A DNA stretch of 64,000 nucleotides from Bacteroidaceae bacterium (lineage in GTDB: Bacteria > Bacteroidota > Bacteroidia > Bacteroidales > Bacteroidaceae). A program made the translations under genes and the position numbers. The notes under the pieces were generated by a model. That model saw only the letters and a program-made list of their open reading frames with translations. It did not search any database and had not been told where the DNA came from. Below are positions 5,397 through 25,879 of the stretch, in pieces (position 1 is the first letter of the stretch; the number at the start of each line of letters is the position of its first letter). Location: contig JAGAQY010000049.1 in NCBI GenBank assembly GCA_017622495.1, positions 1 to 64,000 on the forward strand. Direction: 5' to 3'.

Positions 5397-9527
<4,131 letters not shown>

Positions 9528-9748
9528 CTATTTTGCACACAAGGAAGAAAACATTATTTTTTCTAACTTCATACACACATATACACTCAAGAATTGACTG
9601 GCTCCAACGCATTGATATTGCCCAGCCAAATGCAATCCACACAAGACAAATATACCGATAGCTTACATCTATATATTTATAGACAGTTAAAAGCTGAGAA
9701 AAACAAGAAATACTCATGCGACATTTATGCAAATGCAGAAAAAAGTCG

Positions 9749-9756
9749 TACCTTTG
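9749..9756 (+). promoter_or_regulatory. Probable -7 element of the pflB promoter
   Basis: TACCTTTG fits TAnnTTTG; the -33 position holds only a weak TTAT-like match. It lies 59 nt before the pflB ATG. The 332-bp gap 9483-9814 holds no gene. On the minus strand CGAAGATA (9516-9523, read TATCTTCG) is a possible -7 element for the beta-galactosidase gene. Confidence 0.55.
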
Positions 9757-9814
9757 CAAACGAAAAGAGAAACAGGGATAAAACTAAGAAAAACCCATAT
9801 AAAAATCTATCAGA

Positions 9815-12037
<2,223 letters not shown>

Positions 12038-21057: not shown

Positions 21058-21119
21058 TCGTTTTTGCTGCATCTTTCAGCGAAACGGGAGGAAATCCTGC
21101 ACAAAAATTTTGTAGCATA

Positions 21120-21150
21120 ATGTAAGGTAAATCCTCGGATTTGCTTACAT
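21120..21150 (+). terminator. Hairpin after the PH-domain gene
   Basis: ATGTAAGGTAAATCC and GGATTTGCTTACAT pair with one small bulge. There is no strong T-tract, so termination is possible but not certain. Confidence 0.45.
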
Positions 21151-21198
21151 GGTGTAGAAATCGCAAGTACGCATCTAGAAACTCAAAAACTTTTACGC

Positions 21199-21408
21199 TC
21201 AAGAACTCACGTTTTCGCTTACTTCTTGCATTTCCCTAATGCCCCGTGGCTGCGTTCTTTTCGTCCGCCTTGGGGATTGGGCGGAAAGAGGGGAAGGATG
21301 AGCAGTAGCTGAGATTTTCTCGGTAACTGACTCCTTTCCCAATTCACCACTTGCAAATTCAATGAACTGGCCTTTACCACCAACCCATTTGACAAAAGGT
21401 TTTGCCAT
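21199..21408 (-). pseudogene. Remnant of a DNA adenine methyltransferase (Dam/D12 class)
   Basis: The first 14 residues, MAKPFVKWVGGKGQ, are the SAM-binding N-terminus of Dam-type N6-adenine methyltransferases. After them the frame continues for 55 residues that match nothing in the family (GELGKESVTEK and a basic, proline-rich tail) and then stops. Full Dam proteins are about 270-300 aa and the DPPY motif is absent. The junction falls near base 21365. This is a 5' fragment of a lost restriction-modification or phage methylase gene. Confidence 0.7.
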
Positions 21409-21896: not shown

Positions 21897-21904
21897 TATA
21901 TTTG
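21897..21904 (+). promoter_or_regulatory. -7 type element directly before the CRISPR effector
   Basis: TATATTTG fits TAnnTTTG but ends only 4 nt before the ATG at 21909, so a transcript from it would be leaderless or start inside the codon. No TTTG lies at the -33 position. Either the mRNA is leaderless or the true promoter is further upstream. Confidence 0.4.
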
Positions 21905-21908
21905 CACT

Positions 21909-23327
21909 ATGGCTACGATAACTCGTAAGATAGAACTATACATAGACAAAAGCAATCTAACTGATGATGAATATAAAGCACAATGGCAATATATTCGTCA
22001 AATAGATAACACTTTGTTCTTAGCTGCCAATCGTATATCTTCTCATTGTTTGCTAAACGATGAACTAGAAATTAGATTGAAGTTGCAAATGCCTGAATAC
22101 TGCGAGATAGAAAAGTCGCTTCGAAATTCCAAGAAGAACAAATTAAGCAAAGAAGAAATCTCAGAGTTAAAACTGCGAAGAAAAGAATTAGATGCTGTGG
22201 TTAAAAGACAGAAAGAGGAATTTTTGAAGACTTCGCAGAACTCTACTTACCAACTTGTTGCTTATGAGTTCACCAATATACCAACCGAAATACTCACAAA
22301 TCTAAACAATGATATTGTCGGTAAATATGGAAAGGCAAGATTAGATATAATAAAAGGAATAAAGTCCCCCAGCACATACAAAAAAGGAATTCCTATCCCT
22401 TTCTCTGTAAATAAAAAATCCCCATTTGTTTTTATTGATGGAGATTTAGAATGGTTTAAGGGGAAGACCAAAGAGACCACAGGCAAGATCTTACGGTTTA
22501 AGTTGCACTTTGGTAAAGACAAGAGCAACAATCGAGCTATAGTGGAAAGATTGGTAGAAAGCGCAAAGCTCGGTAAGAAAAAAGGTGAAGCCTATATTGT
22601 GAATAACTCGTCAATCCAATTGGTAGAAAAGGAGAATACAACGAAAATATTCCTTCTGTTGAGTTTGGATATTCCCACTACAAAACGGGCATTGGATTCC
22701 AACCTTGTTATGGGCATAGATTTAGGAATTAATTATCCCATATACTATGCAACGAATGGGAATGCATACATCAAGGGACATATTGGAGACCGTGACAGTT
22801 TCCTGAATGAGCGCATGGTTTTCCAACGAAGATTTAGGGAGTTACAGCGATTACAATGTACGCAAGGAGGGCGAGGTAGGCTGAAAAAATTGGCACCACT
22901 GGAGAAGTTGCGTGAGAAAGAGAGGAATTGGGTTAGAACCAAAAATCATATATTTAGCAGAGAGATAATAAAGTGTGCTCTGAAAATAGGGGCAGGCACT
23001 ATTCATTTGGAAAAACTTAAAAATATAGGAAAGGACAAAGATGGCAATATAGAAGATAGCAAGAAATATATCCTTAGAAATTGGTCGTATCATGAACTAC
23101 AAGAAATGATAGAATATAAAGCCGCAATGGAGGGTATAACAGTAAAGTATGTGAATCCTGCATATACAAGCCAGACTTGTAGCTGTTGTGGTAATAGAGG
23201 GGAAAGAATTAGTCAATCTGTATTCAAGTGCTTATGCCCTGAATGTTCGGAGTATGGCAAAGAGGTTAATGCCGATTATAATGCAGCCCGGAACATAGCA
23301 AAGAGCGAAATATTTGTAAAGAAATGA
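21909..23327 (+). CDS. Miniature type V CRISPR effector (Cas12f-like RuvC nuclease)
   Basis: A 472-aa protein. Residues 1-260 form a lysine-rich helical and beta N-terminal part (wedge/REC-like), with coiled-coil character at 70-105. The C-terminal half is a complete RuvC nuclease: D271 in MGIDLGINYP, E368 in TIHLEKLKN and D456 in NADYNAARNIA. The signature NWSYHELQEMIEYKAAMEGI precedes a zinc ribbon with C424-x2-C427 and C443-x2-C446 (TSQTCSCCG...CLCPEC). These features are shared by TnpB and Cas12f/V-U effectors. A repeat-complementary RNA region and a CRISPR array directly follow on the same strand, which points to a Cas12f-like effector rather than a transposon TnpB. Cas12f proteins are about 400-700 aa. 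No tnpA, cas1, cas2 or cas4 is near. The gene is much more AT-rich than the flanking housekeeping genes, suggesting transfer. Confidence 0.85.
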   Translation: MATITRKIELYIDKSNLTDDEYKAQWQYIRQIDNTLFLAANRISSHCLLNDELEIRLKLQMPEYCEIEKSLRNSKKNKLSKEEISELKLRRKELDAVVKRQKEEFLKTSQNSTYQLVAYEFTNIPTEILTNLNNDIVGKYGKARLDIIKGIKSPSTYKKGIPIPFSVNKKSPFVFIDGDLEWFKGKTKETTGKILRFKLHFGKDKSNNRAIVERLVESAKLGKKKGEAYIVNNSSIQLVEKENTTKIFLLLSLDIPTTKRALDSNLVMGIDLGINYPIYYATNGNAYIKGHIGDRDSFLNERMVFQRRFRELQRLQCTQGGRGRLKKLAPLEKLREKERNWVRTKNHIFSREIIKCALKIGAGTIHLEKLKNIGKDKDGNIEDSKKYILRNWSYHELQEMIEYKAAMEGITVKYVNPAYTSQTCSCCGNRGERISQSVFKCLCPECSEYGKEVNADYNAARNIAKSEIFVKK

Positions 23328-23424
23328 TTGGAGTTTCTCCAATGGGGTTGTTGGAAACCCTGAACTTGAGGCTGATATCCAGCACTCAAGAAGTCTTCAA
23401 AACTATGATAATGTCGTAGATGCG
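23327..23424 (+). ncRNA. Predicted tracrRNA with anti-repeat
   Basis: Directly after the effector stop codon come three hairpins. The first is ATTGGAG-TTT-CTCCAAT (23327-23343). The second is GGGTT/AACCC (23345-23360). The third is a 10-bp stem with one bulge, CTTGAGGCTG/CAGC-A-CTCAAG (23365-23390). Then CAAAAC (23398-23403) and ATGTCGTA (23411-23418) are complementary to GTTTTG and TACGACAT of the CRISPR repeat, in the correct order, with a bulge of about 6 nt in between. Hairpins plus anti-repeat between effector and array is the Cas12f arrangement. The 5' end is uncertain and may lie inside the effector gene. Confidence 0.75.
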
Positions 23425-23431
23425 AATTTAG

Positions 23432-23598
23432 GAATGTTTACGACATGGTTTTGAGTAGTACATCCAACGCCGGTTTGTACTTGCTCTCTGGCAAAGGATG
23501 TTTACGACATGGTTTTGAGTAGTACATCCAACTGGATGTAACCAGCGGAACCTCTTGCACTGGATGTTTACGACATGGTTTTGGGTAGTATTCCTATA
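23432..23598 (+). CRISPR. CRISPR array: three 37-nt repeats, two spacers
   Basis: Repeats are at 23432-23468, 23496-23532 and 23562-23598. The first two differ only at position 2 (A versus G). The third matches for about 29 positions with one change and then diverges, as a terminal repeat often does. The repeat starts GGATGTTTACGACATGG and ends GTAGTACATCCAAC; GGATGT and ACATCC at its ends can pair. The 3' end -CAAC resembles Cas12f repeats. Spacers are 27 nt (23469-23495) and 29 nt (23533-23561) and unrelated to each other. The degenerate repeat at the far end and the tracr location imply transcription on the plus strand. Confidence 0.88.
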
Positions 23599-23604
23599 TA
23601 AAAG

Positions 23605-23644
23605 ATATCCTCTTGAAGTCGTAATTGCGACTTCAAGAGGATAT
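23605..23644. terminator. Strong bidirectional terminator after the CRISPR array
   Basis: A perfect 17-bp stem, ATATCCTCTTGAAGTCG (23605-23621) with its complement (23628-23644), around a 6-nt loop. It lies 6 nt past the last repeat and 2 nt past the stop of the convergent gene, so it can end both transcripts. Confidence 0.85.
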
Positions 23645-23646
23645 TC

Positions 23647-23925
23647 TTACTCCAACGACTCCCTAATCATGCGTCGTGTTTCCTTCACGTAGTCTCTACG
23701 ATTGTACTTTTCACCACGACACAGCCAGCAACTACAGGGAGTGCTGCTATCCTTGTACTTCTTGGCCCAGCGCTGTTGGGCAATTTCAAACCAGTGCGCA
23801 TTGTCGATGCGGTTGCCCCCTTCATCGAAAATGGTGTAACCCCAGCTTGAAAACTTCTGCATACGTGCCTTAAACACACGGTCTTGTTGGAATCTTCTCC
23901 AAACCTTGTTTCTTGTTTTTTCCAT
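23647..23925 (-). CDS. Small protein with a CxCxxC motif, function unknown
   Basis: A 92-aa basic protein starting MEKTRNKVWRRFQQDRVF at the ATG 23925; a TTG start at 23937 would add four residues. It has aromatic and basic stretches, then PCSCWLCRGEKYNRRDY near residue 70, a possible metal-binding CxCxxC. Small proteins with a C-S-C-x-x-C core are widespread in bacteria, but I know no function. It points toward the CRISPR array and shares its terminator. A gene fragment ends 8 nt upstream on the same strand, so it may once have been second in an operon. Confidence 0.65.
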   Translation of the reverse strand: MEKTRNKVWRRFQQDRVFKARMQKFSSWGYTIFDEGGNRIDNAHWFEIAQQRWAKKYKDSSTPCSCWLCRGEKYNRRDYVKETRRMIRESLE

Positions 23926-23933
23926 CGTCTCTA

Positions 23934-24068
23934 TCAATTAAGTTGATAATGTACGATGGATTCATTAATGTGCTGTGTGTAGTCTTCATAGTCGTATGCT
24001 TTTAATTCATTTTTCGAGGGTTTATCTACAAACACAATGCCATAAGTGTCGGCAAGCCACTTTGGCAG
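23934..24068 (-). pseudogene. C-terminal fragment of an unidentified gene
   Basis: An open frame of 44 codons without a start reads WLADTYGIVFVDKPSKNELK and ends YEDYTQHINESIVHYQLN, with its stop 8 nt before the small CxCxxC gene. The residue mix looks like real protein. An upstream stop at 24069-24071 cuts it off. Bases 24072-24420 hold no gene that I can support. Confidence 0.4.
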
Positions 24069-24420
24069 TTATGAAAAGAATTTTAGTGTACGCTTGCAGA
24101 AGTATTGATTTATTCTTAACTTCGCCCCCGAAACATCAAGAGCAGTGTAACGCTGCACCAACCGAGCAGGGATGCCACGGTGGTTTTTGAAGTTGTTTGG
24201 TTTTTATCGCTTATGCGTTTATAAAATCTACTTTTCGGTTTATCTAAGGCCGTTTTTGGCATCTTTGCCCTTTCGCCTCTTGCTAATAGACCACTATTCG
24301 CTGCGAAACGATAGGACAAATCTACTCAAAAACAACTCTTAGCTAACTCGAAATAAAAAACAAACAGCTTCTGTGTTACGATGTGGACAGATTTATTAAC
24401 GTCAAAAAAAACATCCGATT

Positions 24421-24702
24421 ATGACAAAGACAGACACTTACGCCCAAGAGCGTATCGGCTTCTATGAAGCACGTTTCGCATGCGAAACAATCCATCAGTT
24501 AGTAACTAACTTCAACAGCCTGGCCTCCTCACGGGGATGGACGGCAGAGCGCTCCTGCTATTCCTCCGCTCTCACTCGTGAGATGCAGCGGCGCGGCATC
24601 GACCTCACGGCCATCATGAGCAATGACACGGGACAGCAGACTATACGCTACGTCCGTGTGGCATACGATAAGGATTCCCATGCGCTGCTACCGATAGCAT
24701 AA
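24421..24702 (+). CDS. Hypothetical small protein
   Basis: A 93-aa soluble protein, MTKTDTYAQERIGFYEARFA at the start, with a middle segment LTREMQRRGIDLTAIMSN and the end VRVAYDKDSHALLPIA. Support for a real gene comes from its balanced composition, codon use like the genomic background and a good terminator 17 nt after the stop. No signal peptide, membrane segment or known motif is visible. It lies in the accessory island between the CRISPR locus and the HU-HIG cassette. Confidence 0.55.
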   Translation: MTKTDTYAQERIGFYEARFACETIHQLVTNFNSLASSRGWTAERSCYSSALTREMQRRGIDLTAIMSNDTGQQTIRYVRVAYDKDSHALLPIA

Positions 24703-25231: not shown

Positions 25232-25879
25232 ATGGCAACACGAAATTTAGTACAGAAGAAAGCAGGCACCATCGCCTATCAGTTGAAAGAGAAGCACGAC
25301 CTCCGTGGCGAGGCCAGCGAAGAGAATCCCGCTATTGCAGTCACCATAGTGGGTAGCCGCACCGTGACCACTAAGGAGCTGGCCAAGGAGATTGCGGCAT
25401 CGTGCACCGTCAAGGAGGCCGACGTGGCCGGTGTACTCACGGCACTGAGCCAGCGCATACAGCGTACATTACTCAATGGCGACCGCGTAGAATTGGGTGA
25501 TATAGGTACACTATCGGTGACGCTCACCTGCGGCAACAAGCACCGCGCCGACAACGTCACTGCACGAGACATCAAGGTGCGCCGCATCGCCTTCGCACCC
25601 TCGAAAGAGTTGACACAGGCCATGCGTGGTGCCGAGATGAAGAGTGCAGGCCCCACATACATCAAGCAGCTCACCATGGAGGAGATCGAGGAGCGACTAA
25701 CCGCCCACTTTGCCACACACGAAGCACTGTACCGCTCCGAGGTGGAGAGCATCTGCGAGTGTACACGCTACCGTGCTGCACAGCTACTCACAACCTTCGT
25801 GGAAGCTGGCAAGCTGCGTGCAGCAGGGCGTAAGAACGTGCGATACTATTTGGCTTTAGAGGGATGTTTCGGGAAATAA
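25232..25879 (+). CDS. HU-HIG family DNA-binding protein with extra C-terminal domain
   Basis: A 215-aa protein. Residues 1-130 match HU-like proteins of the Bacteroidetes HU-HIG type: N-terminal ATRNLVQKKAG, then TTKELAKEIAASCTVKEADV, RVELGDIGTLSVTLTCG and a beta-arm region. Residues about 145-215 (TMEEIEERLTAHFATHEALY...GRKNVRYYLALEG) look like a winged-helix module, absent from ordinary HU proteins. It probably binds DNA; the TTCGCGAA palindromes just upstream are a plausible self-regulatory site (inference). It is the only gene between inverted repeats at 24822 and 26076, and GC-richer than the CRISPR effector. Confidence 0.82.
   Translation: MATRNLVQKKAGTIAYQLKEKHDLRGEASEENPAIAVTIVGSRTVTTKELAKEIAASCTVKEADVAGVLTALSQRIQRTLLNGDRVELGDIGTLSVTLTCGNKHRADNVTARDIKVRRIAFAPSKELTQAMRGAEMKSAGPTYIKQLTMEEIEERLTAHFATHEALYRSEVESICECTRYRAAQLLTTFVEAGKLRAAGRKNVRYYLALEGCFGK

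Follow-up and report, generated by a model that had tools for sequence, protein, structure and literature searches.

The stretch of DNA analysed here (64,000 nucleotides, hereafter the window), which belongs to a contig (C44) of 120,553 bases, contains a very small array of direct repeats with only two spacers, a degenerate last repeat, and no cas1 or cas2 in the window. The question raised by this locus is whether such an array still supplies guides to an intact CRISPR effector or is what remains of a system that has decayed. We consider it highly probable (about 0.9) that the array provides the crRNAs for a complete type V-F (Cas12f) locus of the stand-alone kind, which is composed of cas12f, a tracrRNA, and the two-spacer array, all on the plus strand, as follows.

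21897..21904, plus strand: possible promoter element TATATTTG just 5′ of cas12f (sequence; the same word lies 5′ of the gene in locus L011)
21909..23327, plus strand: cas12f, 472 aa, with RuvC residues D271/E368/D456 and a CxxC/CxxC zinc finger (ORF, homology, alignment)
23328..23421, plus strand: predicted tracrRNA, which may start within the 3′ end of the gene (fold z −3.78 with repeat 1)
23344..23361, plus strand: hairpin whose loop at 23350-23355 (GUUGGA) is predicted to pair with the repeat 3′ end at 23463-23468 (UCCAAC), the pseudoknot AR:R1 (covariation with loci L098, L099, and L012)
23365..23390, plus strand: third tracrRNA hairpin (fold)
23396..23421, plus strand: long anti-repeat, predicted to pair with the repeat at about 23436-23455, with a 6-nt bulge (fold)
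23432..23468, plus strand: repeat 1 (repeat search)
23469..23495, plus strand: spacer 1, 27 nt, no target found (protospacer searches)
23496..23532, plus strand: repeat 2 (repeat search)
23533..23561, plus strand: spacer 2, 29 nt, no target found (protospacer searches)
23562..23598, plus strand: repeat 3, terminal, without the ACATCCAAC end required for the pseudoknot (repeat search)
23605..23644, no strand assigned: near-perfect inverted repeat with 20-nt arms, a probable bidirectional transcription terminator (sequence)

A repeat search of the window found a 35-nt unit three times, at 23434-23468, 23498-23532, and 23564-23598, with starts spaced by 64 and 66 nt; with the two bases 5′ of it, which read GA in repeat 1 and GG in repeats 2 and 3, the repeat reaches 37 nt. 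Copies 1 and 2 are 100% identical over 35 nt, and copy 3 is 80% identical and diverges over its last ~9 bases: the first 27 nt agree with the other copies except for one A-to-G change, after which ACATCCAAC is gone. Thus, the three 35–37-nt repeats, the spacers of 27 and 29 nt, and the degenerate last repeat, all described in a preceding sequence-only reading, were recovered. Moreover, a 20-mer of the repeat, searched with up to three mismatches, has only three sites in the whole 3.18-Mb genome, all within the array, and its reversed control has none, which shows that this regular array is not a chance occurrence. The same reading had called the spacers short; their lengths stand, and the shortness is only relative, because the repeat-spacer unit of 64/66 nt equals that of related loci, namely 65–67 nt in a Clostridium locus (L012) and 66 nt in each of two Bacteroidales loci encoding nuclease-dead Cas12f (dCas12f; L098 and L099). 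The last repeat of L012 is likewise decayed at its 3′ end, and the third repeat of L098 is altered at its 3′ end, although L012 has seven full repeats and one partial repeat as compared with two and one here. In related Cas12f and dCas12f loci, it is therefore not unusual to find a low number of spacers and a terminal repeat that is altered; since loci lacking cas1/cas2 also occur among relatives (PMC7229846), none of these traits is an anomaly.

The element absent from the sequence-only reading is a predicted tracrRNA hairpin just upstream of the array. The 141-nt segment that begins immediately past the stop codon of cas12f and runs through repeat 1 (23328-23468) has a predicted folding energy of −45.2 kcal/mol, against −30.9 kcal/mol (sd 3.8) for shuffled sequences (z −3.78), and three hairpins are predicted in it, 3′ of which 23396-23421 would form a bulged duplex with the repeat. 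The six-base loop of the second hairpin, GUUGGA, is the exact complement of the six 3′-terminal bases of the repeat. Pairs of the same kind, loop with repeat end, occur in the related loci with other sequences: GUUGGA:UCCAAC here, GUUGA:UCAAC in L098, GCUGUA:UACAGC in L099, and AUUUACAU:AUGUAAAU in L012. The required word appeared in a hairpin loop in just 0.17%, 0.10%, 0.03%, and 0.17% of dinucleotide shuffles at the four loci, and one topology realized by four different sequences makes it very unlikely that the pairing arose by chance. The predicted pseudoknot is thus supported by covariation across four loci. The energy of the repeat–tracrRNA duplex taken by itself reached no more than moderate significance (49 of 2000 mononucleotide-shuffled repeats), for which reason we rely on the whole fold and the covariation; no Rfam family matched within the window. 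In the structure of Un1Cas12f1, part of the crRNA repeat is bound by the stem 3 loop as AR:R1 (PMC8053092), and a short repeat/anti-repeat pseudoknot is listed for Cas12f1 (PMC11246509); the predicted GUUGGA pairing is the counterpart of these. The candidate tracrRNA between gene and array accordingly has both a long anti-repeat and a short loop anti-repeat, and the decayed repeat 3 is without exactly the 3′ end used in the pseudoknot. Regarding the repeat itself, the earlier identification of its 3′ -CAAC end as Cas12f-type proved correct, and the suggested pairing between its ends (GGATGT/ACATCC) is possible; the role that the evidence supports for the 3′ end, however, is pairing with the tracrRNA hairpin loop.

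The cas12f open reading frame (472 codons) stops ~105 nt 5′ of the array on the same strand. Of all solved structures, Al3Cas12f (PDB 9NZO) matches its product best, near full length with an E value of 1e-106 and 216 identical residues in 452 aligned (~48%), and the N-terminal region of the product aligns along its length to that protein at the sequence level. It is a compact effector, within the range of ~400–700 aa, with a tri-split RuvC and a TNB zinc finger: it has D271, E368, and D456 along with all four cysteines of the zinc finger, and Pfam detects the TNB domain. The PADLOC models V-U3 (1e-94) and V-F (4e-89) both match over the full length. In NCBIfam, the broad guided_TnpB model passes its cut-off and Cas12f2 falls far short of its own, a pattern expected of a Cas12f outside the curated subfamilies. 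The word TATATTTG in front of the gene, the possible promoter element, resembles the Bacteroidota −7 motif TAnnTTTG. Comparison with the nearest relative, found in a roe-deer Bacteroidaceae genome (L011; gene 85% identical), gave a dN/dS of 0.058, with ~91 synonymous and 35 non-synonymous changes over the N-terminal 272 codons, the L011 contig ending inside the gene. The N-terminal part of Cas12f is thus under strong purifying selection.

The cassette lies in a variable segment of the genome. The GC content of cas12f is 36.7% as compared with 50.4% for the window, and the protein was absent from all 18 congeners searched. In the genome of a related species (G001, locus L092), the sequences flanking the cassette, to 20556 on one side and from 24109 onward on the other, are present at 91–95% identity, and the 3.6 kb between them consists of other genes. 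In L011, cas12f adjoins a phosphoglycerate-kinase-like (pgk) gene, named by reading the sequence. The low GC content, the absence in congeners, and the differing neighbourhoods indicate that the cassette is accessory, and it was probably acquired horizontally and moved as a unit. No convincing transposon ends or target duplications were found around it, and the flanks share no word of more than 12 nt in either direct or inverted orientation.

Several other elements were observed in the surroundings. The segments 21080-21302 and 24184-24372 belong to interspersed repeat families (~220 and 190 bp) with many copies in this genome and in congeners; the former, at the left of the Cas12f segment, ends at the point where homology to two genomes (G010 and G013) breaks off. 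Adjoining the array, 23647-23937 (minus strand) encodes a small protein with the motif CSCWLCRGEKYNRR and no Pfam family, a relative of which (L092, 1714-1992) occurs within the alternative gene content of G001 at the same site. Further downstream, 24421-24702 encodes a member of a 93-aa ORF family that is present several times per genome in congeners. The DNA-binding protein encoded by 25232-25879 is of the HU-HIG type, and the genome has related copies of it at other places.

Models of Cas1 and Cas2 found no match in the genome (87% complete) and did match control genomes; the genes could lie in the missing 13%. Neither an adaptation module nor a further copy of the repeat was thus detected, which extends the absence of cas1/cas2 reported for the window to the whole 87%-complete genome and agrees with the description of a minimal Cas12f-type array devoid of adaptation genes. 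Type V-U3 loci are known to be devoid of adaptation genes (PMC7229846). The proposed comparison of the spacers with phage, plasmid, and metagenome sequences yielded a protospacer in no collection searched. In IMG/VR, exact 24-nt and 22-nt spacer cores had no match. Seeds of 16 nt, taken from the two ends of each spacer and extended to the whole spacer, reached at most 21 matching bases, the number to be expected from the seed alone. Searches by blastn against phages and plasmids gave only E values of at least 0.4. The 24-nt cores, searched with three mismatches in 349 genomes of the family, recovered only the array itself, and neither spacer had another match in its own genome within three mismatches over 24 nt. 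One human-gut phage match (H41) was considered as a protospacer and rejected; it extends into the repeat and looks like chance. No second strain with this array was found. Relatives of the Cas12f protein were also not found in IMG/VR, and the protein matches in phages and plasmids are TnpB-like, all with <60% identity.

Based on the anatomy of the locus and the known behaviour of the family, the transcript of the array would pair with the tracrRNA through the bulged long repeat/anti-repeat duplex and through the short pseudoknot between the repeat 3′ end UCCAAC and the loop GUUGGA, and the resulting guide RNA would be loaded onto a Cas12f dimer. The first ~20 bases of spacer 1 or 2 would then guide PAM-dependent cutting of double-stranded DNA, most likely in mobile elements, if the locus is expressed; by analogy with the family, the benefit would be immunity. 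For the group of Al3Cas12f, T-rich PAMs have been reported, and a 19-nt guide seemed optimal, with 19–21 nt giving similar results at one site (PMC13186708); spacers of 27 and 29 nt are therefore long enough. The terminal repeat, having lost its pairing end, would only close the array. By itself, the locus would be incapable of spacer acquisition, and the array is probably largely static in this genome.

The small number of spacers, the decayed third repeat, the failure to find cas1/cas2 in the 87%-complete genome, and the lack of spacer targets in the searches would also fit a fossil, that is, an acquired cassette that lost acquisition, has been shrinking, and no longer functions. Against this stands an open reading frame with every catalytic residue, and this intactness together with the dN/dS of ~0.06 argues that cas12f is not a fossil, contrary to the loss of effector integrity that the sequence-only reading had associated with one. 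The two working repeats, moreover, are identical and retain a 3′ end that fits the tracrRNA loop, and relatives too show few spacers and altered last repeats. We therefore regard decay of the locus as quite improbable. Still further from the evidence is a TnpB-type transposon nuclease that merely adjoins a chance repeat: the guided_TnpB and TNB matches are compatible with it, but the protein matches a characterised Cas12f, not TnpB, over nearly its full length, and the repeats, the long anti-repeat, and the covarying pseudoknot occur in the right order. The mobile ends and the repeat-less single-piece guide RNA of IS605/IS607 TnpB contrast with the array present here and with the failure to find transposon ends around the cassette, and the probability of this explanation is close to nil.

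Related dCas12f loci with one- or two-spacer arrays and the same pseudoknot design, together with the lack of a phage or plasmid target in the searches, raise the idea that the guides are fixed and serve a purpose other than immunity, for instance in controlling a resident element or host genes, as in the nuclease-dead Cas12f of Bacteroidota. What those relatives have lost, the RuvC residues and the TNB zinc finger, this protein has kept; moreover, neither spacer matches its own genome within three mismatches over 24 nt, and an enzyme able to cut would be harmful if targeted there; hence, we think such a role very improbable. In a wider form of this idea, a nuclease-capable Cas12f with two fixed guides would be a non-immune control device representing a step between the immune and the nuclease-dead Cas12f of Bacteroidota, which we likewise consider improbable. 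The stand-alone type V-F locus supplied with crRNA by the array remains the preferred reading.

Among the Bacteroidota matches inspected in order- and phylum-level samples, most (L013-L015, L108-L113, and L005) are ~360–380 aa long and end before the TNB domain, and the three dead relatives tested have the nuclease-deactivated Cas12f 9N9C as their best match. Full-length nuclease-capable Cas12f was rare among the Bacteroidota sampled, most relatives inspected being catalytically dead, so the present locus may be a useful nuclease-capable comparison for the origin of the dead proteins.

The dead genes have varied surroundings. In L108-L113, a sigma-factor-like ORF lies in front of the dead Cas12f gene (by eye), an arrangement that we take to resemble described RNA-guided transcription systems. 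In L098 (genome G153, contig C4), a dead, TNB-less Cas12f (378 aa) with its own three-repeat, two-spacer array (repeats at 7173, 7239, and 7305), together at 5933-7340, lies ~1 kb from genes (8088-10830) for a TniB/TnsC-like ATPase and a Mu/TnsB-like transposase (Pfam rve and Mu-transpos_C). Transposon ends were not found in L098, and its spacers gave only weak matches in their own genome (18/20 and 17/20), near the control level. In L099 (5426-6676; genome G043, contig C20), the dead gene is in a prophage-like region with RusA, methyltransferase-like, and helicase-like genes, and a tracrRNA-like hairpin with a two-repeat, one-spacer array lies upstream of the gene, not downstream. One further genome (G395) has two dead genes (L096, 5390-6478, and L015/L097), each beside a gene for a ClpV-like type VI secretion ATPase (by eye), and no direct-repeat array was found near either.

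Collectively, the locus is another type V-F Cas12f and no new kind of system. It represents a diverged lineage close to Al3Cas12f, which is a small nuclease under study as a genome-editing tool, and the key pseudoknot of the guide scaffold of the locus is backed by covariation. The locus is otherwise ordinary as a CRISPR observation and of modest value to specialists, as a new ortholog whose guide scaffold is well supported.

Among the known systems, Un1Cas12f1 (Cas14a1; PMC8053092) likewise has the AR:R1 hairpin loop, a second anti-repeat (AR:R2), and the RuvC and zinc finger, but is archaeal and only distantly related (E 1e-24 to 1e-25); cas1, cas2, and cas4 accompany some V-F loci of its kind (PMC7229846). 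The V-U3/Cas12f1 loci of Clostridia and Bacilli, such as that of Syntrophomonas palmitatica (PMC7229846), have no adaptation genes, and none were detected here in the 87%-complete genome. The Clostridium locus L012 shares the cas12f–tracrRNA–array order, a unit within 64–67 nt, the loop/repeat-end pairing, and the decayed last repeat, whereas its protein is only 38% identical. The dCas12f proteins (PDB 9N9C, E 3e-31) are related and, in the Bacteroidales loci L098 and L099, come with mini-arrays of the 66-nt unit and the same pseudoknot design; they are ~365 aa long without the TNB zinc finger and RuvC residues, both of which are intact in the Cas12f of the window. Closest is Al3Cas12f of Alistipes sp. 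(PDB 9NZO/9NZR), a characterised and experimentally active nuclease (PMC13186708), whose lineage features extended REC helices α2/α3; it shares near full-length homology, the phylum, the nuclease residues, and a minimal array with a tracrRNA beside the gene, whereas about half of the aligned residues differ.
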